This document shows positions 763-10,475 of a DNA stretch of 12,596 nt, piece by piece (position 1 is the first letter of the stretch; every line of letters begins with the position of its first letter). The notes under the pieces are model-generated. The model was not told where the DNA came from, made no database searches, and saw only the letters and a program-made list of their open reading frames with translations. The position numbers and the translations under genes are program-made. The DNA is from Klenkia sp. GTDB taxonomy: Bacteria; Actinomycetota; Actinomycetes; Mycobacteriales; Geodermatophilaceae. Location: positions 1-12,596 of the forward strand of contig JAOPVM010000295.1 in assembly GCA_025966215.1 (NCBI GenBank). Direction: 5' to 3'.

Positions 763-1971
763 ATGTCCGACAAGACGACTGTGCCCACACACGACGCGGC
801 CGACCTGGCCTCGCAGGGCGAGGAACGGCTGGGCTGGATCCGGTCCCGCATGCACCTGCTGGCGGCCATCCGGGAGGACTTCGCCGCGCGCAAGCCCTTC
901 GACGGCATGACGATCGGTGTGGGTCTGCACACCGAACCGAAGACCGCCGTGCTGTTCGAGACGCTCGCCGCCGGCGGGGCGCGGGTGCTGGGAACGGGCA
1001 ACCACGGCTCGACCCAGGACGACATGGTCGCGGCGCTGGCCACCTCCGGCGTCACCATCTTCGGGCGTCGTGAGGACACCCTCGCCGAGCACCACGACAA
1101 CCTGCGCAGGACCATCGACGCCCGGCCCGACATCCTGCTGGACAACGGCGCCGACCTGGCTGCCCTCGCCGCCGAGAGCGGTGCCGCCGGCCAGATCATC
1201 GGCGGCACCGAGGAGACCACCTCGGGTGCCTTCCGGCTGCGTGAGGCGTTCGAGGGCCAGATCCCCTTCCCCGTGATCGTCATCAACGACAGTCCGCTGA
1301 AGGCAATCGGGGAGAACCTGCACGCAGTCGGTCAGAGCACCGTCGAGAGCTGGATGCGCATCACCAACCTGATGATCCCCGGTCGCCGATTCCTCGTCGC
1401 TGGTTACGGCTGGTGCGGCCGCGGGATCGCGCAGTACCTGCGTTCGCTGGGCGGGCTGGTGTCGATCGCCGAGATCGATGAGATCAAGGCCTTCGAAGCG
1501 GCCTTCGACGGCTTCCGGGTCGGCACGGCAGCCGAGCTGCTGCCGGGCGCCGATGCCGTCATCACCGCCACCGGCCGGGCCGGGGTCATCTCCGCGGACC
1601 TGATCGACCTGATCCAAGATGGTGCTGTGCTGGGCAACATCGGACACTTCCCCTGGGAGATCGACGTGGCCGCGCTGAAGAAGCGCGCCACCACGATCAA
1701 CCCCATGACCTCCGCCATCGAGGTGCTGACGATGGAGGACGGCCGCGAGCTGACGCTGCTGGCCGACGGGCGCATGTTCAACCTGGCCGGCACCGCCCCG
1801 AAGGGCAACTCCATCGAGTCGATGGACCTGGGCTTCGCCCTGCAGGCCCTGTCACTGGAGCGCGTCGCCCTGGACGCAGGCTCGCTGCAGCCCGGCCCGC
1901 AGCGCGTGCCCGACGACATCGAGCGCCGCGTCGCCCGCGACATCGTGGCGCAGCTCAAGGGCGCTCACTGA
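763..1971 (+). CDS. Short S-adenosylhomocysteine hydrolase-like enzyme
   Basis: The protein has 402 residues and belongs to the NAD-dependent adenosylhomocysteinase (SAHH) family, which converts S-adenosylhomocysteine to adenosine and homocysteine by transient 3' oxidation. Visible motifs are GLH (His56), STQDD (83-87), GGTEETT (147-153), Lys180, the Rossmann NAD loop GYGWCGRG (214-221) and GNIGHF with His295. It resembles the short archaeal/Thermotoga-type enzymes (about 400 residues), not the ~480-residue housekeeping form usual in actinobacteria, and lacks the C-terminal KPDHYRY-like tail. The usual DDGGD reads DNGAD (127-131), the Asp-Asn pair after the catalytic Lys reads Glu184-Asn185, and the Cys195-equivalent is Val. 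It is therefore probably a specialised paralogue, perhaps acting on another 5'-substituted nucleoside. ATG 763 has a good RBS, GAGGCGG. Its stop overlaps the IclR start (TGATG). Confidence 0.9.
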   Translation: MSDKTTVPTHDAADLASQGEERLGWIRSRMHLLAAIREDFAARKPFDGMTIGVGLHTEPKTAVLFETLAAGGARVLGTGNHGSTQDDMVAALATSGVTIFGRREDTLAEHHDNLRRTIDARPDILLDNGADLAALAAESGAAGQIIGGTEETTSGAFRLREAFEGQIPFPVIVINDSPLKAIGENLHAVGQSTVESWMRITNLMIPGRRFLVAGYGWCGRGIAQYLRSLGGLVSIAEIDEIKAFEAAFDGFRVGTAAELLPGADAVITATGRAGVISADLIDLIQDGAVLGNIGHFPWEIDVAALKKRATTINPMTSAIEVLTMEDGRELTLLADGRMFNLAGTAPKGNSIESMDLGFALQALSLERVALDAGSLQPGPQRVPDDIERRVARDIVAQLKGAH

Positions 1972-2780
1972 TGAGCGAGCCGGTCTCGATGCCACCCTCC
2001 GTCACCCCTGTCCCGGGCGCTGCGGATCCCCGTGTCGAGACCGGCTCGACCACCGCCCCCGTCTACAGCGCCCCGGCGGTAGACAAGGCCCTCGACGTGC
2101 TCGAGCTGCTGTCGCTGGCTCCCTCTCCGCTGTCGCAGAACCAGATCGCGCACGAGGTCGGCCGCTCGGTCTCCCAGATCTTCCGGGTGCTGACCGTGCT
2201 GGAACGGCGCGGGTACATCGCGCGCGATCCAGAATCAGGCCTGTACTCCCTCACCATGGCGATGTTCGACGTCGCCCACCGCAAGGAACCCATCCGCACC
2301 CTGGTCGCCCTCGCCCACGGACCCATGCAGCGCCTGGCCGAGGAAGTCATGCAGTCCTGCAACCTGGGCTACCGCACCGGCTCCACGCTCACCATCGTCG
2401 CCGAGGCCGCGGGCGCCTGGGACTTCGGCTTCCGCGTGCGGGTCGGGGCCACGTTCCCGCTGCTGCCCTCCACCTCCGGCCTCGTGCTGCTGGCACACGC
2501 CGGAGACCTCGACCCGGCCGACCCTGCGCTGCCGTCCACCGACGAGGACACCCTGCGCACCATCCGGGCCCAGGGGTTCTGGACCTGCGCGGACGAGACG
2601 CACCCGGGCATCCTCGACATGGCCGCCCCGGTGACCCGGCGCGACGGATCGGCAGTAGCCGTCCTCACCGTGCCCTACGTCGCGACCTCCTACAGCAAGG
2701 TGCCCGCCGACGCGGTACGGGGTGCCCTGGTGCAGACCGCCGCCCAGATCAGCACGCGGCTGTCCGGAAGCGACCGATGA
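1971..2780 (+). CDS. IclR-family transcriptional regulator
   Basis: The protein has 269 residues with the two-part IclR architecture. An N-terminal winged helix-turn-helix spans about 35-95, with PLSQNQIAHEVGRSVSQIFR as the HTH and RRGYIARDPESGLYSL as the wing. The C-terminal effector-binding domain (about 105-265) includes a YRTGSTLTIV strand, the PLLPSTSGLVLLA region where family members usually read G-x-x-x-P-L-x-x-T-A-x-G-K, and AAPVTRRDGSAVAVLTV. It carries a 30-residue Pro/Thr/Ser-rich lead. It lies inside the catabolic gene set, overlapping the SAHH-like gene by 1 base and the kinase gene by 4 (ATGA), so it is probably translated from the same transcript and controls that operon in response to a pathway metabolite. 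The ligand cannot be told from sequence. A later ATG (residue 7) is possible, but the overlap and the AAGGGCG upstream favour 1971. Confidence 0.9.
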   Translation: MSEPVSMPPSVTPVPGAADPRVETGSTTAPVYSAPAVDKALDVLELLSLAPSPLSQNQIAHEVGRSVSQIFRVLTVLERRGYIARDPESGLYSLTMAMFDVAHRKEPIRTLVALAHGPMQRLAEEVMQSCNLGYRTGSTLTIVAEAAGAWDFGFRVRVGATFPLLPSTSGLVLLAHAGDLDPADPALPSTDEDTLRTIRAQGFWTCADETHPGILDMAAPVTRRDGSAVAVLTVPYVATSYSKVPADAVRGALVQTAAQISTRLSGSDR

Positions 2781-3721
2781 GCACGTCCGGCGCGCAGGTG
2801 ACCGGCCCCATCGCGGTGGCCGTCGTCGGCTCGGTCAACCTGGACCTGATCACCGTGGTCGACCACCTGCCGCTGCCCGGTGAGACCCAGCTGGCCACCA
2901 GCGATGACGAGGGCCTGGGCGGCAAGGGGGCCAACCAGGCTGCCGCAGCCGCTCGAGCCGGTGCCCGCACAGCCCTCGTGGCCGCTGTCGGTCACGACGA
3001 CGCCGGTGCACTGTGCCGGCGCGAGTTGGACCGGCTGGCGGTCGACACCACGCAGCTGCAGGTGGTCACTGCGGTGGCCACGGGGCGAGCGATCGTCATC
3101 GTCGACACCGCCGGGGAGAACACCATCGTGGTCTCCTCCGGGGCCAATGCCAGCCTGGCGCCCGACCACGTCGAGCAGGCGCTGGCGGCGCTGCCGCTGG
3201 GCCCCGGCAGCGTGCTGGTCAGCCAGGGTGAGGTCAGCGCCGACGTCGTGGATGCAGTCGGCCGGTTCGCCGGTACGCACGACCTGCGGTGGGTGCTCAA
3301 TCTCGCCCCTGTCATCGACGTCGACGTCGCCACGCTGACCCGGGCCTGGCTCGTGGTCGTCAACGAAGGTGAGCTGTCCGACCTGTGGGCCCAGCTCATC
3401 GACCCGGTGCAGCTGCCGCCGGCCCAGGGGCCTCCGGGTCCCGTCCAGATGGCCACAGCCGTGGCCGAGTCGCTCGGGGTCCAGGTGCTGGTCACCCGGG
3501 GCGCACACGGTTGTCTGCACGTGCGCGACCGAGTCGTGCAGGAGTTCCCGGCCCACCCGGTGGAGCGGGTGGTGGACACCACCGGCGCCGGAGACACCTT
3601 CGTCGGTACCTTCAGCGCCGCCATCGCCGGCGGAGCCGAGATCGACACCGCCGTCGCGGCCGCCAGCCGCGCAGCCGCCACCCTCATCGCCAGCCTGGGC
3701 GCCTCCCCGCGCTCTCCCTGA
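2777..3721 (+). CDS. PfkB-family sugar kinase (ribokinase-like)
   Basis: The protein has 314 residues, the usual ribokinase size. The N-terminal GSVNLDLITVVDHLPLPGET strand/lid region is typical. PfkB signature 1 is GGKGANQA (48-55), and signature 2 is DTTGAGDTFVGTF (267-279), whose Asp273 is the catalytic base and which forms the anion hole. A ribokinase-like LNLAP segment lies at 174-178 and a VVVNEGE motif at 193-199. Expected reaction: ATP plus ribose gives ribose 5-phosphate. Adenosine/nucleoside kinases share the fold, but GGKGANQA and the neighbouring nucleoside hydrolase, which releases free ribose, favour ribokinase. A Pro/Gln-rich stretch at about 206-222 (DPVQLPPAQGPPGP) looks like a small insertion. 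The start codon overlaps the IclR stop (ATGA); CGGAAG upstream is the likely RBS. Confidence 0.87.
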   Translation: MSTSGAQVTGPIAVAVVGSVNLDLITVVDHLPLPGETQLATSDDEGLGGKGANQAAAAARAGARTALVAAVGHDDAGALCRRELDRLAVDTTQLQVVTAVATGRAIVIVDTAGENTIVVSSGANASLAPDHVEQALAALPLGPGSVLVSQGEVSADVVDAVGRFAGTHDLRWVLNLAPVIDVDVATLTRAWLVVVNEGELSDLWAQLIDPVQLPPAQGPPGPVQMATAVAESLGVQVLVTRGAHGCLHVRDRVVQEFPAHPVERVVDTTGAGDTFVGTFSAAIAGGAEIDTAVAAASRAAATLIASLGASPRSP

Positions 3722-3729
3722 ACCCCGTC

Positions 3730-3759
3730 GGTGGCCGGCCGGGCGCGACACCGGCCGCC
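3730..3759 (+). other. Intra-operon hairpin after the kinase gene
   Basis: GGTGGCCGG (3730-3738) can pair with CCGGCCGCC (3751-3759) around a 12-base loop, with one G-U pair. It starts nine bases after the kinase stop codon, in the 146-base gap before the nucleoside hydrolase. There is no T-run. It could be a weak terminator or an mRNA-processing element that sets hydrolase expression apart from the upstream genes. The rest of this gap shows no other structure I can support. Confidence 0.35.
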
Positions 3760-3867
3760 ATCGCGGCACACCCGCGAAACCACCCTGCGCACCCGCCGGT
3801 TCCACCATGCCCCGTGCGCTCGCCGCACCGGGTCGGATCGCCCCGCCCCCGACTCTGGAGAACCTTC

Positions 3868-4800
3868 GTGCCCGCCACCTCGCTGGTCATCGACACCGAC
3901 ACCGCCTCCGACGACGCCATCGCGCTGATCATCGCCGCCCGGTCGGCGGCCACCGTGCGCGCCATCACCGTCGTCGGCGGCAACGTCCCCCTGCCCCAGG
4001 CCGTCCGCAACGCCCAGGTCACCCTCGAGATCGTCGGCCTGTCCGGGGTCCCGCTGCACCGCGGCCTGCCCCACCCGCTGTTGCGTCCCCTGGAGACCGC
4101 GCAGGAGGCGCACGGCGAGGACGGCATGAGCGGGGTGCCCTTCCCCGAACCCAGCTACCCCGTGGCCGAGGCCCACGCGGTCGCCGCTCTGCTGGACATC
4201 GCCGCCCACGAACCCGGACGACACCACCTGGTCACCCTGGGCCCGCTGAGCAACATCGCTGCGGCGCTGTTCATCGACCCCGACCTGCTCACCAGGTTCA
4301 CCAGGACGACGATGATGATCGGTGCCGCCGACAACCGCGGCAACATCGCCCCGACCGGGGAGTTCAACGCCTGGGTCGACCCCGAAGCGGCCGCGGTGGT
4401 GTTCGCCGCCCCAGGCCGCAAGGAGATGGTGGGTTGGGACGCCTCCCGCCAGTACGCCGTCATCACCCCCGAGGACGAGGCGCACCTGCGCACCCTCGGG
4501 CCGCTGGGTGTGCTCACCGCCGACGTCAACGGGGTCTACCGCGACTTCTGTCGAGAGGTGACCGGGGTGCCCGGATACGACCTACCCGACCCGCTGGCCA
4601 TGGCCGTTGCCCTGCACCCGGAGCTGGTCACCGAGCGGCAGCACCTGCACATGACGGTGGCCACCGATGCGGTCACCCGCGGGCAGACCTTTCCCGACCG
4701 CCGACCGGCCAGCCCGCCGCCCAACCTGGAGGTCATCACCGCCGTGGACAGCGACGCCTTCAAGCAGGTCCTGTTCACCTCGGTCGGCGACGAGCCGTGA
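3868..4800 (+). CDS. Nucleoside hydrolase (IUNH family)
   Basis: The protein has 310 residues, the usual family length, and cleaves the N-glycosidic bond of ribonucleosides to free base and ribose using bound Ca2+. The N-terminal Ca2+ loop DTDTASDDA (9-17) corresponds to the classic DTDxGxDDA. Other family marks are VVGGN (Asn39), LGPLSNIA (124-131), GEFNAWVDPEAA (164-175, with the substrate-binding Glu165/Asn167 pair) and DPLAM with the late Ca2+ Asp241. In inosine-uridine hydrolases the residue before that Asp is the general-acid His (H241 of the Crithidia enzyme). Here it is Pro240, so leaving-group activation must differ, as in purine-specific (IAG-type) members. The GTG start at 3868 is chosen because GGAG sits 7 bases upstream and the Ca2+ motif follows at the normal distance; no ATG is suitably placed. 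It is the last gene of this set; the product ribose suits the kinase upstream. Confidence 0.88.
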   Translation: MPATSLVIDTDTASDDAIALIIAARSAATVRAITVVGGNVPLPQAVRNAQVTLEIVGLSGVPLHRGLPHPLLRPLETAQEAHGEDGMSGVPFPEPSYPVAEAHAVAALLDIAAHEPGRHHLVTLGPLSNIAAALFIDPDLLTRFTRTTMMIGAADNRGNIAPTGEFNAWVDPEAAAVVFAAPGRKEMVGWDASRQYAVITPEDEAHLRTLGPLGVLTADVNGVYRDFCREVTGVPGYDLPDPLAMAVALHPELVTERQHLHMTVATDAVTRGQTFPDRRPASPPPNLEVITAVDSDAFKQVLFTSVGDEP

Positions 4801-4802
4801 CG

Positions 4803-4824
4803 ACCGACCAGGTCTCCGGTCGGT
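4803..4824. terminator. Hairpin after nucleoside hydrolase
   Basis: ACCGACC (4803-4809) pairs perfectly with GGTCGGT (4818-4824) around an 8-base loop, two bases after the hydrolase stop codon. It lacks a T-run, as many actinobacterial terminators do. It is the first of two hairpins in the 74-base gap between convergent genes. Confidence 0.45.
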
Positions 4825-4845
4825 ACACCGAGGTCTCCGCCGGGG

Positions 4846-4871
4846 CGGGCGCCCTCGGCCGTGGGCGCCCG
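4846..4871. terminator. Convergent-gap GC-rich terminator hairpin
   Basis: CGGGCGCCC (4846-4854) pairs perfectly with GGGCGCCCG (4863-4871) around an 8-base loop. It lies three bases beyond the LacI stop codon on the minus strand and 45 bases beyond the hydrolase stop on the plus strand, so it could serve both transcripts. There is no T-run. Confidence 0.6.
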
Positions 4872-4874
4872 ACG

Positions 4875-5867
4875 TCACCCGACTGCCCCGGTCGAACCGC
4901 GCACCACCAGCCGTGACCCGATCGTCTGACGCGCTGTGGGCTGCTCGGACAGCAGAAGATCGACCGCGCCGGCACCGATGTCGGCCGCCGACAACTCCAC
5001 CGTGGTCAGCTCCGGGGTGGTCATCCGGGCCAGATCGATGTCACCGACTCCGATCACCGACAGCTGGGACCCGACGGTTCCCGGCGCGGCCGCGCGGATC
5101 AACGCTGCGGCGAGGAGGTCGTCATCGCACATCACCGCCGTGACACCGGGGGAGGAGCGGAGCAGCTCGCGTCCAGCGTGCACCGCATCGTCGAAGTCCA
5201 AGGACGCACTGCGTTGCACCGCGACCACCGCGCCGCCCTGGTCGACCACCTGGGACGTGAAGGCCTGCCGCCGGCGGCGGTAGGTGAACCGGTCCCCGTT
5301 GGCCGCCAGGTAACCGATGGCGGTGTGCCCGAGTTCGCCGAGGTGCCGGGCAGCCTCGGTCATCCCCTGGGAGAAGTCGAACTCGATCAGCGGCAGGCCA
5401 GATGCGGCGCCGGCGTCGGCGAGAACCACCGGCAGCCCGGTGTCGGCGAGTGCCTGCGCCTCGGCAGGCCGGGCGCCGTAGGCGATCGCGCCGGCGAGCA
5501 CCCCGCCGCGCAGCATGTCGGCCAGACGCTTGACCCACTGCTCGTCGCTACCACTGTTCAGCAAGATCATCGAGTAGCCGGACTCGCGGGCTCGCCGCTC
5601 GGCAGCGAGCAGCACCGAGGAGAAGAAGGGCTGGGTGACCGTCGGCACCGCCAGGGCCAGCGTCGGGGCCAGCCCGGTGCGCAGCATCGCCGCGGCAGCA
5701 TTGGGGGCATATCCCAACTCGTCGGCCGCCTCGAGGATCCGGGCCGCCGTCTTGGCCGAGACCCTGGTCCCGGCCTTCCCCGAGATGACCAGGGAGACCG
5801 CCGACTGGGACACCCCTGCATGTCGCGCAACGTCACCACTGGTGACAGCTCGTCGCCGCGGCTCCAT
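4875..5867 (-). CDS. LacI-family transcriptional repressor
   Basis: The protein has 330 residues. The N-terminal LacI helix-turn-helix (about 8-30) reads VTSGDVARHAGVSQSAVSLV, followed by RVSAKTAARILEAADELGYAPNAAAAMLRTG, the third helix and hinge with the usual leucine that inserts into the operator centre. The rest is a periplasmic-binding-protein-like effector domain (about 62-330: LALAVPTVTQPFFSSVL, GYSMILLNSGSD, LPVVLADAG, ELGHTAIGYLA, VTAVMCDDDLLA, LSVIGVGDIDL). Start ATG 5867 is preferred because the HTH then begins at the normal distance and GGTGGGG precedes it; upstream extension would add 30 unrelated residues. It is divergent from the transporter operon, with a matching palindromic operator between them, so it most likely represses import genes until its ligand, probably a nucleoside or sugar, is present. 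CytR and RbsR are family precedents. It is convergent with the hydrolase. Confidence 0.93.
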   Translation of the reverse strand: MEPRRRAVTSGDVARHAGVSQSAVSLVISGKAGTRVSAKTAARILEAADELGYAPNAAAAMLRTGLAPTLALAVPTVTQPFFSSVLLAAERRARESGYSMILLNSGSDEQWVKRLADMLRGGVLAGAIAYGARPAEAQALADTGLPVVLADAGAASGLPLIEFDFSQGMTEAARHLGELGHTAIGYLAANGDRFTYRRRRQAFTSQVVDQGGAVVAVQRSASLDFDDAVHAGRELLRSSPGVTAVMCDDDLLAAALIRAAAPGTVGSQLSVIGVGDIDLARMTTPELTTVELSAADIGAGAVDLLLSEQPTARQTIGSRLVVRGSTGAVG

Positions 5868-5915
5868 CCCCACCGCCCCCACTCGTTGCCGGCTCGTAAC
5901 GATCGTGCCAGGCCA

Positions 5916-5944
5916 TTGACGCGCCCAGCAGGGAGCCCTAATTT
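5916..5944 (+). promoter_or_regulatory. Promoter of the transporter operon
   Basis: TTGACG (5916-5921) and TAATTT (5939-5944) are separated by exactly 17 bases, a good match to a housekeeping sigma-70/HrdB-type promoter. Transcription would start near 5950-5952, leaving a leader of about 55 bases before ATG 6005. The predicted start falls at the left edge of the palindromic operator. Confidence 0.6.
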
Positions 5945-5949
5945 GAGCG

Positions 5950-5969
5950 CAGGTCATTCGTATGACCTG
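5950..5969. promoter_or_regulatory. Predicted LacI operator overlapping +1
   Basis: CAGGTCATTCGTATGACCTG is a 20-bp palindrome with 9 of 10 base pairs symmetric and a central CpG, the standard form of a LacI-family operator. It begins about six bases after the -10 box, so bound repressor would block initiation or promoter escape. It lies between the lacI-type gene (minus) and the binding-protein gene (plus), supporting control of the importer by this repressor. The link to this particular repressor is inference from position and form. Confidence 0.72.
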
Positions 5970-6004
5970 TGCAACACCTCCTACCTAGAAGATCGGTCTG
6001 CGAG

Positions 6005-7069
6005 ATGTCACAGAGGTCAGGAGCGCGACGCGCGCTCATCGCTGCAGTCGCCGGCGTCACCGTGGTCGCCCTGGCGGCGTGCGGCTCCGGGGGCGGCTCG
6101 GAATCCGGTTCGTCCTCCGCGGAGGGTCCTGTCGTGTGGGTGGATGGCGGCGGTGCCTACCACGACGCCATGCAGGAGGGGGTCCTGGACCCCTTCACCG
6201 CCGACACCGGCATCGACGTCACCGTCGAGGCCGGCACCGACAACGCCAAGCTGCGCTCGATGGTCGATGCCAACCGGGTGGTCTGGGACGTCTACAACGG
6301 TGACAACACCTGGGGCACCAGCGTCGATGGCGACTACCTCGAGCCCCTGGACTACTCGGTCATCGACCAGGACCAGATCCTGGAGGGGTACTCCTCGGAG
6401 TACCGCGTCGCCAACTCCATCTACAGCATCGTGCTGGCCTACAACACCGACCAGGTGACCTCCGAGCCCTCCGGCTGGGCGGACTTCTTCGACCTGGACA
6501 AGTACCCGGGCAAGCGCGGCGTCATGGACTACTCCCTGGGTGGGCTGTTCGAGATCGCGCTGCTGGCCGACGGGGTGGCCCCGGAGAACCTCTACCCCCT
6601 GGACATCGACCGGGCCATCGCCAAGCTGGACACCATCAAGGACTCGCTGGTGTTCTGGCAGAGCGGCTCGGAGTCCGAGGAGATCGTCGGCAGCGGAGAG
6701 GTCGCCATGGTCATGACCTACAACGCCCGCGCCTACGACGCCCGGGAGAACCTGGGTCTGCCGGTGGACTACACCTTCAACCAGCAGATCCTGGCCGCCT
6801 CCTACCTGTCTGTGCCCAGGGGCACCCAGAACCTCGATGCCGCCATGCAGCTCATCGCCTACGCGGTGAGCGCCGAGCACAACGGGGCGCCGTCGCAGTT
6901 CAGCCCGCTGGCACCGTCGAACACCGAGGCGACCCCGGACGCGGCCATGGAGCAGGACCTGCCCACCGCGCACCTGGACCAGCCGCACGCCAGCTTCGAC
7001 GACGAGTACATCGCGCAGAACTCCGCCGAGATCGACAGCGCCTACCAGGCCTGGCGCGCCAGCTCCTGA
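6005..7069 (+). CDS. ABC importer substrate-binding lipoprotein (PotD-like)
   Basis: The protein has 354 residues: an extracellular solute-binding protein of the polyamine/spermidine-putrescine type (SBP family 1/8), anchored outside the membrane as a lipoprotein. The signal peptide has RSGARR, then a hydrophobic core, and a lipobox LAAC with Cys26 at the lipidation site, followed by a Gly/Ser-rich linker (27-39). The mature part opens with VVWVDGGGAYHDAMQEGVLDPF, and VDANRVVWDVYNGDN, YSIVLAYNTD, GWADFFDLDKYPGKRGVMDY and GSGEVAMVMTYNARAY are typical of PotD-like proteins. An upstream GTG (5969) in the same frame is rejected: it would overlap the operator and put 12 extra residues before the signal peptide. 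Despite the family label, the setting suggests the ligand is a nucleoside or related compound; that is inference. The first gene of the transporter operon. Confidence 0.9.
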   Translation: MSQRSGARRALIAAVAGVTVVALAACGSGGGSESGSSSAEGPVVWVDGGGAYHDAMQEGVLDPFTADTGIDVTVEAGTDNAKLRSMVDANRVVWDVYNGDNTWGTSVDGDYLEPLDYSVIDQDQILEGYSSEYRVANSIYSIVLAYNTDQVTSEPSGWADFFDLDKYPGKRGVMDYSLGGLFEIALLADGVAPENLYPLDIDRAIAKLDTIKDSLVFWQSGSESEEIVGSGEVAMVMTYNARAYDARENLGLPVDYTFNQQILAASYLSVPRGTQNLDAAMQLIAYAVSAEHNGAPSQFSPLAPSNTEATPDAAMEQDLPTAHLDQPHASFDDEYIAQNSAEIDSAYQAWRASS

Positions 7070-7074
7070 GGTAG

Positions 7075-7110
7075 CTCGTGGTGGGCCCTGGCGAGGGGGC
7101 CCACCACGAG
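7075..7110 (+). other. Strong intra-operon hairpin (expression-tuning element)
   Basis: A perfect 14-bp stem CTCGTGGTGGGCCC (7075-7088) / GGGCCCACCACGAG (7097-7110) with an 8-base loop begins 5 bases after the binding-protein stop codon, without a T-run. Placement between binding-protein and permease genes is the classic position for partial terminators or mRNA-stabilising hairpins that give more binding protein than membrane components (as between malE and malF). The permease gene follows 40 bases later in the same direction. Confidence 0.75.
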
Positions 7111-7150
7111 TCCTGCCGCCTGAACGGACAGCACAGAAAGGCATACCGGT

Positions 7151-8017
7151 ATGGCTACAACCCGGGTCAGAGACGGCCGTTCGGTCGCGCACCCCGTCAT
7201 GGTGGTCCCGCTGCTCACGCTGCTGGCCGTCCTCTTCCTCGCCCCCCTGGCCACCGTCGTCATCCGCAGCTTCACCTATCCGCTCGACGCCCCCGGTGGC
7301 CTGGGCAACTACACCCGGGTCCTCACCGACCCCATCGCCCTGCAGTACGCCGGCAACACCTTCCGCACGGCCCTCGTGGTCGCCGTGCTGACCGTGGTGA
7401 TCGGCTACTTCTACGCCTACGCCATGTACAAGGCCACACCCGGCTGGCGGATCTTCCTGCTGTTCGCAGCGCTCCTGCCGTTCTGGACCAGCCTGCTGGT
7501 GCGCAGCTTCGCCTGGTCGGTCATCCTGCGGGACACCGGCATCGTCAACGACCTGCTGGTGGGCACCGGCATCGCCGATGCGCCCATCCCGCTGCTGCGG
7601 ACCTCCTTCGCCGTCACCGTCGGCATGACCCAGATCCTGCTGCCCTTCGTCATCCTGCCCTGCTTCGCCGCGATGGGGCGGGTGGACAAGAACCTGCTCA
7701 GCGCATCCCGGAGCCTCGGCGCAGGGCCCATCGGCACGTTCTGGCGGATCTTCGTGCCGCTGACCGCACCGGGCACCGCCGCCGGCGCGGTGCTGACGTT
7801 CATCCTCGCGGTCGGCTACTACATCACCCCGGTGCTGCTGGGTGGACCCTCGGACCAGCCGATCGCGGTGCTGATCGAGAACGCGGTGCAGCAGCGCGGT
7901 GACTGGGCCACCGCCGGGGCGCTGGCCACCCTCGTCCTGATCATCGTCATCGGGCTCCTGGCCGCCGGCTGGGGACTGCTGGCACGAGCGTTCCTGCCTG
8001 GAAAGGACCAGCGATGA
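7151..8017 (+). CDS. ABC importer permease 1 (PotB-like)
   Basis: The protein has 288 residues and about six hydrophobic membrane segments. The first is PVMVVPLLTLLAVLFLAPLATVVI near the N-terminus, then a periplasmic loop, TALVVAVLTVVIGYFYAYAM, IFLLFAALLPFWTSLLV, VTVGMTQILLPFVILP, a TAAGAVLTFILAVGYYITPV segment and a final LATLVLIIVIGLLAAGWGLL. The EAA-type cytoplasmic loop that docks the ATPase is DKNLLSASRSLGAGPIGTFW followed by RIFVPL. This matches the first permease of spermidine/putrescine-type importers. GAAAGG (7136-7141) lies 9 bases before the ATG. The gene overlaps the next permease by 4 bases (ATGA), indicating coupled translation and a heterodimeric channel. Confidence 0.92.
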   Translation: MATTRVRDGRSVAHPVMVVPLLTLLAVLFLAPLATVVIRSFTYPLDAPGGLGNYTRVLTDPIALQYAGNTFRTALVVAVLTVVIGYFYAYAMYKATPGWRIFLLFAALLPFWTSLLVRSFAWSVILRDTGIVNDLLVGTGIADAPIPLLRTSFAVTVGMTQILLPFVILPCFAAMGRVDKNLLSASRSLGAGPIGTFWRIFVPLTAPGTAAGAVLTFILAVGYYITPVLLGGPSDQPIAVLIENAVQQRGDWATAGALATLVLIIVIGLLAAGWGLLARAFLPGKDQR

Positions 8018-8883
8018 CCGCCCCCACAGCTGCATCACCAGCAGCCACCGCCACCGGGGAAGGGGCACCGGTCACCGACGTGCAGCCTGCGTCGCCCCGA
8101 CGGTCACCGTTCCGCTGGGCCTGGGCCGTGCTCACCGCCCTGGTGGTGTTGCTGCTGCTCTTCCCGGCGCTGGTGGTGCTCCCCATGAGCGTCAGCACCA
8201 GTGAGATCCTCACCTTCCCGCCCAGCGGGTTCAGCCTGCGCTGGTTCGGGAATCTCTTCACCGATCCGCAGTGGACCCAGGCGCTGGCCAACAGCTTCCA
8301 GGTCGCGGTGCTCACCGCGGTCTTCGCCGCCCTGATCGGCACCCCGGCCGGGATCGCGCTGGGGTTCCGGCAGTGGCGGGGCCAGGGCCTCATCCTGGCC
8401 CTGGTCGTCTCCCCGGTCATCGTGCCGCCGATGGTCATCGCGGTCGGCATGTACGTCACCTACGCCCAGTTCGAACTCATCGGGTTCTGGGGTCTGGTGG
8501 CCGCCCACACCATGCTCGTGGTGCCCTTCGTCATCGTCACCGTGATGTCCTCGGTGGCCCAGATCAACCCCAGTGCCGCCGACGCCGCCCGCAGCCTGGG
8601 CGCCTCACCGGTGGTCGTGGTCGGGCGGATCCTGCTGCCCCTGGCGCTGCCCGGGATCGTCTCGGGGATGCTGTTCGCCTTCGTCACCTCCTGGGACGAG
8701 GTCGTCGTCGCGCTCTATCTCACCGACCCGGGCTTCAAGACCCTGCCGGTGGTGATGTGGGACCAGCTGCGCGAGCGCGTGGACCCCACCGTCGCCGCCA
8801 TCGCATCGATCCTGCTCATCGTCACTGTCCTGATCATGGCTGTCGCGCTGCTGCGCGGAAGGAGGCGGACCCGTGGCAATTGA
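8014..8883 (+). CDS. ABC importer permease 2 (PotC-like)
   Basis: The protein has 289 residues. It has a Thr/Ala/Pro-rich cytoplasmic N-terminus (about 1-30) and then six predicted membrane segments, beginning with WAVLTALVVLLLLFPALVVL. Others are VAVLTAVFAALIGTPAGIAL, LILALVVSPVIVPPMVIAVG, a VAAHTMLVVPFVIVTV segment, ALPGIVSGMLFAFVTSWDEV and IASILLIVTVLIMAVALL. The EAA loop is INPSAADAARSLGASPVVVV. The LYLTDPGFKTLPVVMW segment is typical of PotC-like partners. It pairs with the preceding permease. Its 3' end overlaps the ATPase gene by 11 bases and contains the latter's ribosome binding site. Confidence 0.92.
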   Translation: MTAPTAASPAATATGEGAPVTDVQPASPRRSPFRWAWAVLTALVVLLLLFPALVVLPMSVSTSEILTFPPSGFSLRWFGNLFTDPQWTQALANSFQVAVLTAVFAALIGTPAGIALGFRQWRGQGLILALVVSPVIVPPMVIAVGMYVTYAQFELIGFWGLVAAHTMLVVPFVIVTVMSSVAQINPSAADAARSLGASPVVVVGRILLPLALPGIVSGMLFAFVTSWDEVVVALYLTDPGFKTLPVVMWDQLRERVDPTVAAIASILLIVTVLIMAVALLRGRRRTRGN

Positions 8884-10009
8884 CGCCACCTCGGTGACGC
8901 TGCGAAACGTCGCCAAGCACTACGGGAACTCCACCGCCGTCGAAGGCGTGGACCTGACCATCCGCGCCGGGGAGTTCGTGTCCATGCTCGGGCCGTCGGG
9001 GTCGGGCAAGACCACCACGCTGAAGATGATCGCCGGCTTCGAGGCCCCCTCGACCGGACAGATCACCTTCGACGGCGTCGACGTCACCAACATCGCCCCC
9101 GAGAAGCGCAACATCGGCGTCGTCTTCCAGAACTACTCCCTGTTCCCCCACCTCACCGTCGGGCAGAACGTCGCCTTCCCGCTGAAGATGCGCAAGGTCC
9201 CCGCTGCCCAGCGGGACGAGCGCGTCGCCCGGGCGCTGGAGCTGGTGGAGCTGCCCGGGTTCGAGAAGCGCAAGCCCGACTCGCTGTCCGGCGGTCAGCA
9301 GCAGCGGGTCGCCATCGCCCGTGCGCTGGTGTTCGAACCCACCCTGCTGGTGATGGACGAGCCCTTGGGCGCGTTGGACCGCCGGCTGCGGGAGGTCATG
9401 CAGCTGGAGATCAAGGCACTGCACGACCGGCTGGGGGTCACGGTCATCTACGTGACCCACGACCAGGAAGAGGCGCTCACGATGAGCGACCGCATCATCG
9501 TGTTCAGCAAGGGCAAGATCGAGCAAGTCGGCACCCCGCGCGAGGTCTACGACGAGCCGGCGACGGAGTTCGTCGCCGACTTCGTCGGGGAGTCCCTGGC
9601 GATCAGCGCGACCTGGGACGGCAACGCGCTCATCGCCGACACCCTCGGCGTGCTCGCCGTCCCCGGCCCCGCGCTGCCTGCCGGGCCGGTCCGGGTGCTG
9701 TGGCGTCCGCACGCCATCGGCCTCACCGAGCGACCCGATGCCGACAGCAAGGACCTGCACGTGCAGGCCACCGTGCTCACCAGCGGCTACGCCGGGGGAG
9801 TGGTCAAGGCCCGCATCAGCCTGCCCACCGGCGACGAGGGCATCGTCTCCATCACCTCGGTCGGCGTCGACTACTCACCCGGTGCCACCATCGACCTGTA
9901 CCTGCGGGCCGACCGGGCGATCGTGCTGCCCACCGCGGCTGGCAAGCGCGGCGGTGGCATGTCCGAGACCGACCAGCGGGACGACACCACGGCCGGCCGC
10001 CGTGGGTGA
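8873..10009 (+). CDS. ABC importer ATPase (PotA-like)
   Basis: The protein has 378 residues and carries all nucleotide-binding motifs: Walker A GPSGSGKTT (40-48), Q-loop Gln86 in VFQNYSLF, signature LSGGQQQR (138-145), Walker B LLVMDE (158-163), D-loop and switch His196 in YVTHDQEEAL. The C-terminal part (about 240-360) is a TOBE regulatory domain with VRVLWRPHAIGL and LRADRAIVLPT, as in PotA/MalK-class importers, and ends in a Gly/Arg/Asp-rich tail. The start is GTG 8873, supported by GGAGG (8861-8865) 7 bases upstream inside the permease gene. It overlaps the following deaminase gene by 8 bases. With the binding protein and two permeases it completes the importer. Confidence 0.95.
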   Translation: MAIDATSVTLRNVAKHYGNSTAVEGVDLTIRAGEFVSMLGPSGSGKTTTLKMIAGFEAPSTGQITFDGVDVTNIAPEKRNIGVVFQNYSLFPHLTVGQNVAFPLKMRKVPAAQRDERVARALELVELPGFEKRKPDSLSGGQQQRVAIARALVFEPTLLVMDEPLGALDRRLREVMQLEIKALHDRLGVTVIYVTHDQEEALTMSDRIIVFSKGKIEQVGTPREVYDEPATEFVADFVGESLAISATWDGNALIADTLGVLAVPGPALPAGPVRVLWRPHAIGLTERPDADSKDLHVQATVLTSGYAGGVVKARISLPTGDEGIVSITSVGVDYSPGATIDLYLRADRAIVLPTAAGKRGGGMSETDQRDDTTAGRRG

Positions 10010-10475
10010 GGAGACCGCCCGCGCCACCGACGGAACGGTGGCGGGCAGCAGGATCGACCAGGCCACGGTCGAGGCGCTGGTGGCAGCCGCGACCAGCAGC
10101 CGCCAGCATGCCTACTCCCCGTACTCGAACCATCTGGTGGGCTCGGCGGTGCTCGATGGGGAGGGCCGCATCCACAGCGGCTGCAACGTGGAGACCGTCA
10201 CGTTGCAGCAGTCGATGCACGCCGAGCGCACCGCGGTGGCCGCCATGGTCGCTGCTGGGGGTCGACGCATCCAGGCCGTCACCGTCGTGGGCCCCTACTC
10301 CGGGGTGCCGTGCGCTGAGTGCAGGCAGGTCATCTGGGAGTTCAGCGGTGGCGATCCCGACGTGGTGGTCATCAGCGCCCCCCTGGGCGAGGAACCCGAA
10401 CTGCTGACGATGGGGCAGATCTATCCACGGCCGTACGGCCCGGAGACCAAGGGCATCGACCCCCGCGACTACTGA
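10002..10475 (+). CDS. Cytidine deaminase-like zinc hydrolase
   Basis: The protein has 157 residues (small, tetramer-type size) and belongs to the cytidine deaminase fold. Zinc motifs are HAERTA (His73, catalytic Glu75) and PCAECRQV (Cys104, Cys107). The ribose-binding CNVE (Asn62, Glu64) and the substrate-side YSPYS (38-42) are present. Short cytidine deaminases usually read CAERTA; His as first ligand is normally seen in the larger E. coli-type enzymes. Also unusual are YSNHLVG where YSxFxVG is standard, and CNVETVT where CNVENAS is standard. It may therefore deaminate a non-standard nucleoside or be blasticidin-S-deaminase-like. The GTG start at 10002 overlaps the ATPase stop; GTG 10038 is an alternative, and neither has a strong RBS. 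Its place at the end of the importer operon suggests it processes the imported substrate. Confidence 0.85.
   Translation: MGEETARATDGTVAGSRIDQATVEALVAAATSSRQHAYSPYSNHLVGSAVLDGEGRIHSGCNVETVTLQQSMHAERTAVAAMVAAGGRRIQAVTVVGPYSGVPCAECRQVIWEFSGGDPDVVVISAPLGEEPELLTMGQIYPRPYGPETKGIDPRDY

Follow-up and report, generated by a model that had tools for sequence, protein, structure and literature searches.

Genes of the locus

The stretch analysed here (the window) comprises 12,596 nucleotides from a Klenkia sp., being contig JAOPVM010000295.1 of a 2.92-Mb draft genome that is 73% complete (GCA_025966215.1), and carries a candidate locus for the uptake and breakdown of a modified nucleoside, centred on an NAD enzyme with the fold of S-adenosylhomocysteine (SAH) hydrolase (SAHH), here called SAHHL. 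The gene list and coordinates that an earlier note had drawn up from the DNA alone hold throughout, all the named genes being present with strong family matches. Two divergent units can be distinguished, one formed by SAHHL, an IclR-family regulator, a kinase and a nucleoside hydrolase, and the other by a LacI-family regulator divergent to the genes of a binding protein (SBP), two permeases, an ATPase and a deaminase relative:

389 to 404, unstranded: palindrome GGTCAT-N4-ATGACC (exact match), 5' to the SAHHL unit and probably a second site for a regulator
721 to 737, unstranded: putative IclR-type site GTGAAACTCACCTTCGT, resembling ATGAA-N7-TTCAT at 8 of 10 fixed positions
763 to 1971, plus strand: SAHHL, SAHH-fold NAD enzyme with an altered active site (AdoHcyase_NAD, E = 1.7e-39)
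1971 to 2780, plus strand: IclR-family regulator (IclR_C, 3.2e-14)
2777 to 3721, plus strand: PfkB/ribokinase-like kinase (PfkB, 1.3e-47)
3868 to 4800, plus strand: nucleoside hydrolase (IU_nuc_hydro, 260 bits, cut-off 34.2)
4875 to 5867, minus strand: LacI-family regulator (LacI, 6.1e-13; start placed from its helix-turn-helix)
5952 to 5967, unstranded: putative LacI-type operator in the gap between LacI and SBP, core GTCATTCGTATGAC
6005 to 7069, plus strand: ABC binding lipoprotein (SBP) of a GABA (gamma-aminobutyric acid)/opine-type subfamily (SBP_bac_8, 1.5e-37)
7151 to 8017, plus strand: ABC permease 1, PotB/H type (BPD_transp_1)
8014 to 8883, plus strand: ABC permease 2, PotC type (BPD_transp_1)
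8873 to 10009, plus strand: ABC ATPase, PotA subfamily (ABC_tran; TIGR01187, 364.1 bits, cut-off 355.6)
9999 to 10475, plus strand: cytidine-deaminase relative (CDA2) of a distinct subfamily, with an HAE...PCAEC zinc motif

The kinase scores 214.2 bits against the ribokinase model, under its cut-off of 299.65, and the nearest NCBIfam model of the nucleoside hydrolase is UriH, likewise under its cut-off (172.6 bits, cut-off 450). The deaminase relative, in addition to the zinc motif (HAE, PCxxC), scores above the cut-off of NF004064 (97.6 against 74) and below that of TIGR01354 (92.6 against 113.65), and it may deaminate a cytosine-type base.

As for the importer, the polyamine type assigned to it in the earlier note suits its ATPase and not its binding protein. 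The solved nearest relatives of the latter are GABA-, agropine- and mannopine-binding proteins, with E-values of 1.8e-61 for 4eq7, 9e-56 for the GABA sensor 6dgv and 1e-38 for the agropine protein 6hly, against only 3.9e-7 for PotD (1pot), and neither a PotD nor a PotF model is among the two families that it matches. The polyamine label that 4eq7 carries comes from its depositors; we take 4eq7/4euo to be a GABA-binding protein. Polyamine uptake was consequently rejected, since the binding protein belongs to another subfamily.

Active site of SAHHL

SAHHL is predicted to form a confident and complete SAHH fold (mean pLDDT 93.8), all 50 matches listed in the comparison of this model with known structures are SAHH entries, and the NAD domain is present. 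Its active site departs from that of the canonical enzyme at several positions, which are given in what we take to be the human SAHH numbering. In the protein of the window Asp131 is replaced by Asn128, Asp190 by Glu184 and the hinge residue His353 by Asn349 (Asn or Asp in the family), and the adenine motif HxTxE/Q gives way to HxExK. In the family alignment the Asn, the Glu and the oxo-base motif HxExK occur in 142 of 142 rows, both aspartates being present in the 2 canonical rows, and His55, Glu156, Thr157, Lys186, Asn191 and His301 are unchanged in all 142 rows; these catalytic positions are still kept where identity within the family drops to about 40%. In SAHH, Asp131 is the carrier of the C4' proton and Asp190 a ligand of the 2'-OH, according to PMC4647836, and in solved archaeal enzymes HxExK binds O6 of inosine, according to PMC10978960. 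Residue roles were assigned by number from the first of these sources, and the positions were cross-checked with Asp128, Glu57, Lys59 and His298 of the Pyrococcus furiosus enzyme in the second, as well as with the alignment. Judged by its sequence, SAHHL is a separate family, distinct from SAHH, in which the active site is systematically altered.

An ordinary SAHH is encoded on another contig of the same genome (PF05221, 483.9 bits, compared with 66.2 bits for SAHHL), and among the identified genes of the window none belongs to the methyl cycle or to homocysteine metabolism. SAH, which the earlier note had named as a possible substrate, is thus unlikely, because the family lacks the Asp that handles the C4' proton and has the oxo-base motif HxExK, in a genome with its own SAHH; Asn128 and the presence of a separate SAHH also tell against S-inosylhomocysteine. 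Nevertheless, SAHHL passes the NCBI equivalog model for adenosylhomocysteinase (NF004005, 374.2 bits, cut-off 275) despite the replaced catalytic Asp, and database entries of the family are therefore probably misnamed. The family is not small: protein searches with SAHHL returned 2900 matches at E <= 0.001 and 2044 at E <= 1e-60 (120 listed in each case), totals that may include canonical SAHH. Searches of the open-access literature returned no account of the SAHHL family or of this locus.

Conservation, putative operators and descent of the gene set

The co-occurrence of the two gene sets in other genomes had been set beforehand as a test, and it was observed. The deaminase was searched for (E <= 1e-30) in 394 genomes of the same class, the source genome included, and in 199 genomes of the family of a Mesorhizobium genome; matches were obtained in the genome of the window and in 8 others, all eight with SAHHL nearby. 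The six neighbourhoods that were fetched (L133-L138) all contain a LacI gene divergent to SBP-permease-permease-ATPase-deaminase-SAHHL, with identities to the window of 64-78% for the SBP, 64-82% for the deaminase, 41-68% for LacI and 43-48% for SAHHL, and in L133 the operon continues with a kinase (36% identity) and a nucleoside hydrolase (29%). In the remaining two, Mesorhizobium loci L039 and L049, which had already surfaced in the scan for SAHHL described below, the deaminase is divergent to SAHHL-IclR and lies beside a sodium symporter (by Pfam in L039, by the same gene cluster in L049). The deaminase is also found in 5 of the 7 Mesorhizobium genomes searched by way of their SAHHL loci, which, being selected for SAHHL, are not independent evidence. 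The importer-deaminase-SAHHL part is, as far as sequence comparison goes, conserved across phyla. A plasmid search with the deaminase yielded a single weak relative. The nearest deaminase of Devosia (L139) has no SAHHL within the stretch compared; this relative, 45% identical, lies by eye near genes resembling a PnrA-type ABC importer.

Contigs were also scanned with SAHHL, the best 80 of 130 relatives being kept as loci; these belong mostly to Microbacteriaceae, with Mesorhizobium, Kaistia, Devosia and a few metagenome-assembled genomes. An IclR gene lies at most 600 bases from SAHHL in 70 of the 80, and within 10 kb a nucleoside hydrolase is found in 45 and a deaminase in 48, the three together in 39 (counted from the listing). 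The control was canonical SAHH, which was found in 28 of 29 of these genomes and of which 20 neighbourhoods of 19.9 kb were compared. Around canonical SAHH there was no IclR, hydrolase or deaminase gene in the 20 genomes and an ABC ATPase in 3, whereas the SAHHL loci of the same genomes have IclR in 20, hydrolase in 10, deaminase in 15 and ABC ATPase in 14; the control genomes were hand-picked from the 80 to span lineages (30 named), so these proportions do not represent a random sample. Taken together, the conservation of the importer-deaminase-SAHHL set and this control indicate that the locus is more than a chance assembly.

Differently built loci bear on the same point. A plasmid of Vibrio nigripulchritudo (L090) has the order hydrolase-SAHHL-adenosine deaminase-ribokinase-DeoR-hypothetical-NupC, its kinase and hydrolase being 30% and 25% identical to those of the window. 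In Subtercola lobariae (L053), Pfam matches around SAHHL-IclR comprise a PnrA-type importer, cytidine deaminase, pyrimidine phosphorylase, hydrolase, adenosine deaminase and purine phosphorylase, and, on crude gene calls, many other loci of Microbacteriaceae show these clusters in the surroundings of SAHHL as well. In Vibrio fortis and Photobacterium a LysR gene lies 5' of SAHHL, and the annotation names no nucleoside gene near SAHHL in V. fortis. Of 11 SAHHL-like plasmid records, 7 have the family signature (L089-L093, L143, L144); the others (L094, L141, L142, L145) cluster with canonical SAHH.

Sugar-related genes were also noticed in some of these surroundings. In V. nigripulchritudo (L090 2792-7921) an ascorbate-type phosphotransferase system (PTS) is annotated near SAHHL, accompanied by transketolase and transaldolase, and in S. 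lobariae (L053 13397-14174) SAHHL has PTS EIIA and IIB genes in its vicinity. On plasmids of Ensifer canadensis (L091 11992-14172, by Pfam) and Rhizobium rhizoryzae (L144 8977-11157, by eye) a Gfo/Idh/MocA-type gene directly follows SAHHL, a neighbour that is suggestive of keto-sugar chemistry.

The two units of the window share a palindrome. In the whole draft genome exact GGTCAT-N4-ATGACC occurs only at 389-404 and at 5952-5967, and in 200 shuffles of the window it did not occur. Within the LacI-SBP gap the core GTCATTCGTATGAC is exact in L133 and L135, has one mismatch in L134, L136 and L138, and three in L137. A search of whole genomes that tolerated one mismatch gave 1 to 3 matches per genome, and in 6 of 7 genomes 1-2 of them fall in the LacI-SBP gap, the sole such match of G544 lying outside it; the reversed pattern, used as a control, gave 0 or 1 per genome. 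The palindrome at 5952-5967 is a putative binding site of the LacI regulator. The copy at 389-404 is weaker, and probable rather than certain: 359 bp separate it from the gene, and it has CTGC in the centre where TCGT is conserved. The exact pattern GGTCAT-N4-ATGACC is probably not the IclR site, since it is absent from 92 of 96 loci, the 4 carriers being pieces of the window's own contig. That role probably falls to the element directly 5' of SAHHL, to which IclR is expected to bind: upstream of SAHHL genes, exact ATGAA-N7-TTCAT occurs in 25 of 81 regions, and TATGAAA in 48 of 81 against 1.2 expected. A second and different palindrome with a CG centre, GGAAACGTTCC, was seen by eye at 254-264, within a long stretch 5' of SAHHL (1-762) that has no convincing gene and two candidate open reading frames with no Pfam match. 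No RNA element was found in the window at gathering scores, and sigma-70-type promoters and terminators were not above shuffles.

In the tree, the SAHH-type rows (the genome's own SAHH, Nonomuraea, Paenibacillus, Rubrobacter and two from Roseateles) are split from the other 30 with support of 100/100. The window falls into an IclR clade with Microbacteriaceae, Mesorhizobium, Kaistia and Devosia (14 rows, 100/98), and L133-L138 fall with L091 and L093 into a LacI-operon clade (8 rows, 100/100). The deaminase has thus been joined to SAHHL of two subfamilies, and the window pairs the importer-deaminase module of the LacI-operon clade with an SAHHL of the IclR clade. Of the inner branches 15 of 33 are firmly supported, the root is a midpoint, by which V. 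fortis and Photobacterium come to lie with SAHH, and the long branches of L090, RosA, RosB and CANON make finer placing unsure. At E <= 1e-100 SAHHL is absent from all 77 relatives of the source genome that were searched, and the tetranucleotide distance of the contig from the bin centroid is 0.172 (nine other contigs, themselves at 0.087-0.143). The deaminase is followed on the right flank by a MarR gene and then by DUF5313; of 28 other genomes of the family, 11 have genes that are 66-74% identical to this MarR gene, 2 of 8 congeners included. Horizontal acquisition of the locus is more likely than an error of binning.

Proposed route, its alternatives and known systems

Starting from what the sequences contain, namely the gene set, the cross-phylum conservation of importer, deaminase and SAHHL, the operator-like palindromes and the altered active site, a substrate and a reaction of SAHHL may be proposed. 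The ABC importer would bring in the nucleoside, and the deaminase relative would convert a cytosine or cytosine-like base to uracil. SAHHL would then hold the oxo base through HxExK and oxidise the 3'-OH with its bound NAD; the chemistry on the resulting 3'-keto sugar would proceed without the C4' acid-base Asp, most likely on the C2'/C3' side (epimerisation or another repair), and re-reduction by SAHHL would leave an ordinary uridine-type nucleoside. The nucleoside hydrolase would cleave this product to uracil and ribose, and the kinase would yield ribose 5-phosphate; where hydrolase, deaminase and kinase are not near SAHHL, the product would enter general salvage. By their families hydrolase and kinase should require an ordinary ribose nucleoside and ribose, and both are neighbours of SAHHL, as distant members of their families, in three loci of separate build (the window, L133 and V. 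nigripulchritudo), so that the simplest reading is one in which SAHHL repairs the sugar and the deaminase prepares the base. We regard the general pathway, that is, the steps of import, deamination, cleavage and phosphorylation around an SAHHL step on a nucleoside, as probable, and lean, by a narrow measure, towards a dedicated LacI- and IclR-controlled locus that scavenges a sugar-modified nucleoside and in which SAHHL repairs the sugar. That SAHHL acts at C2'/C3' instead of removing a 5' group is put forward only tentatively. Doubtful, and to be taken as a speculation, is the wider idea that SAHHL represents a new enzyme class that uses the SAHH fold. With the help of NAD it would isomerise or epimerise the sugar of a nucleoside by way of a 3'-keto nucleoside, C4' keeping its proton, and would thereby make an ordinary nucleoside out of an unusual one of the uracil or hypoxanthine type; the class would occur in Actinomycetota, Pseudomonadota, Bacillota, Acidobacteriota and Chloroflexota, under the misnomer adenosylhomocysteinase.

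Several observations count against the proposed route. The order of steps given is one possible order, and the epimerase-like proposal draws on no more than two substitutions. The nearest solved binding proteins take amino acids or opines and not nucleosides, and the base is not fixed, since the partner in Vibrio is an adenosine deaminase; in a separate alignment HxDxK replaces HxExK in 3 of 68 well-called rows. Moreover, 27 of the 80 SAHHL loci lack both a hydrolase and a deaminase within 10 kb (some contigs are short), in none of the 80 does anything near SAHHL match the kinase or the binding protein of the window, and the five alphaproteobacterial operons (L134-L138) show no match to the window's kinase or hydrolase in the stretch compared. 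Finally, the adjacency seen in Microbacteriaceae is largely one inherited arrangement and not many independent events.

The earlier note had suggested the salvage of a 5'-substituted nucleoside. In this reading SAHHL would remove a thioether, an ether or a similar substituent from the deaminated nucleoside by SAHH-like elimination and hydration, with another residue standing in for Asp131. We consider it the chief alternative, possible and yet unlikely. The SAHH fold and most of the catalytic residues are kept, hydrolase and kinase would again be supplied with an ordinary nucleoside, so that the chain fits equally well, and a Roseateles plasmid pairs two SAHH-like genes with ExK with an ABC importer, an amidohydrolase and a nucleoside hydrolase; both of these Roseateles proteins, however, retain Asp131, whereas the C4' acid-base residue is Asn in 142 of 142 SAHHL rows. 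The SCNIF stretch, which presumably lies near the 5' side of the substrate, has become TG[NS].. in the SAHHL family. His81, the sole replacement acid looked at in a model that was not searched for others, was rejected, since it is not invariant, some family members having Pro, Leu, Arg, Tyr, Gln, Phe or Ile at this position. The SAHH homologue AgmF is reported to dehydrate a free nucleoside, a reaction of the same type, but it retains the Asp in question and its D129A variant is dead (PMC8599513).

Much less probable is a degenerate SAHH that serves as a nucleoside sensor or inactive partner and is no enzyme. The replaced catalytic Asp and a regulator that often adjoins (the IclR gene of 70 of the 80 loci) would fit such a role, but the constancy of the other catalytic positions, the complete fold of the predicted structure and the company of enzymes and a transporter in differently built operons argue otherwise. 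Least probable of all is that an amino acid or opine importer and its deaminase lie beside a nucleoside salvage operon by chance or through an error of binning. The affinities of the binding protein, the atypical composition of the contig and the lack of SAHHL in the 77 relatives are in line with it; the single operon in six other genomes, the common palindrome with its only two copies in the draft genome and the family-typical MarR gene on the right flank speak against it, and co-occurrence elsewhere has largely refuted it. Of the earlier interpretation, the joined pathway of import and breakdown is supported: it gains from the conserved set, from the one operon that also has kinase and hydrolase, from the palindrome shared by the two units and from the V. 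nigripulchritudo set with its nucleoside transporter. Two of its details fare otherwise, SAH being unlikely as the substrate and the polyamine label of the binding protein finding no support.

Should SAHHL act on nucleosides, any prediction of a methyl cycle that includes it is in error, and there is a route for the catabolism of a modified nucleoside still to be found; if it is an isomerase or epimerase, this route would serve a nucleoside pool that nobody has looked for. An operon with its own importer, deaminase and operator offers a direct way to find the substrate.

Among known systems, the uridine operon of Corynebacterium glutamicum, whose layout we take to be uriR-rbsK1-uriT-uriH, shares with the locus the logic of a LacI regulator, an importer, a ribokinase and a pyrimidine nucleoside hydrolase, but to our knowledge it has neither a deaminase nor an SAHHL, and the proteins of the window remain well under the cut-offs of its models (91.1 against 550 for UriR; for UriH as given above). 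The S-inosyl-L-homocysteine hydrolase-type SAHH of Euryarchaeota resembles SAHHL in HxExK and in a short C-terminus, yet the P. furiosus enzyme keeps Asp128, Lys-x3-Asp-Asn and a hinge Gly-His, which the SAHHL family does not, Asn128 taking the place of the catalytic Asp. ExK together with both Asp is seen in some bacterial rows, too (Paenibacillus, Roseateles). On the Roseateles plasmid (NZ_CP084754.1 361436-371492; L145, L146) a LacI gene is divergent to two tandem SAHH-like genes, a sugar-type ABC importer, an amidohydrolase whose best models, all under cut-off, include 8-oxoguanine and 5'-deoxyadenosine deaminase, and a nucleoside hydrolase; each of the two SAHH-like products has ExK and retains Asp131 and Asp190, but one lacks His55 and His301. 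AgmF, the dehydratase of angustmycin biosynthesis, is likewise an SAHH homologue that acts on a free nucleoside and not on SAH, and its homologues are described as widespread, but it is biosynthetic and keeps Asp129 and Asp188 (PMC8599513); of its residue set (Asp129, Lys184, Asp188, His56, His299) SAHHL keeps the Lys and both His, both Asp being replaced. The catabolism of 2'-O-methyl nucleosides (LbNH, AgNH, RK9NH, FJS/PHYHD1), in which the accessible sections of PMC12709175 describe hydrolases or 2-oxoglutarate oxygenases and no SAHH-like catabolic enzyme, has in common with the proposed route the salvage of sugar-modified nucleosides and the use of bacterial nucleoside hydrolases.

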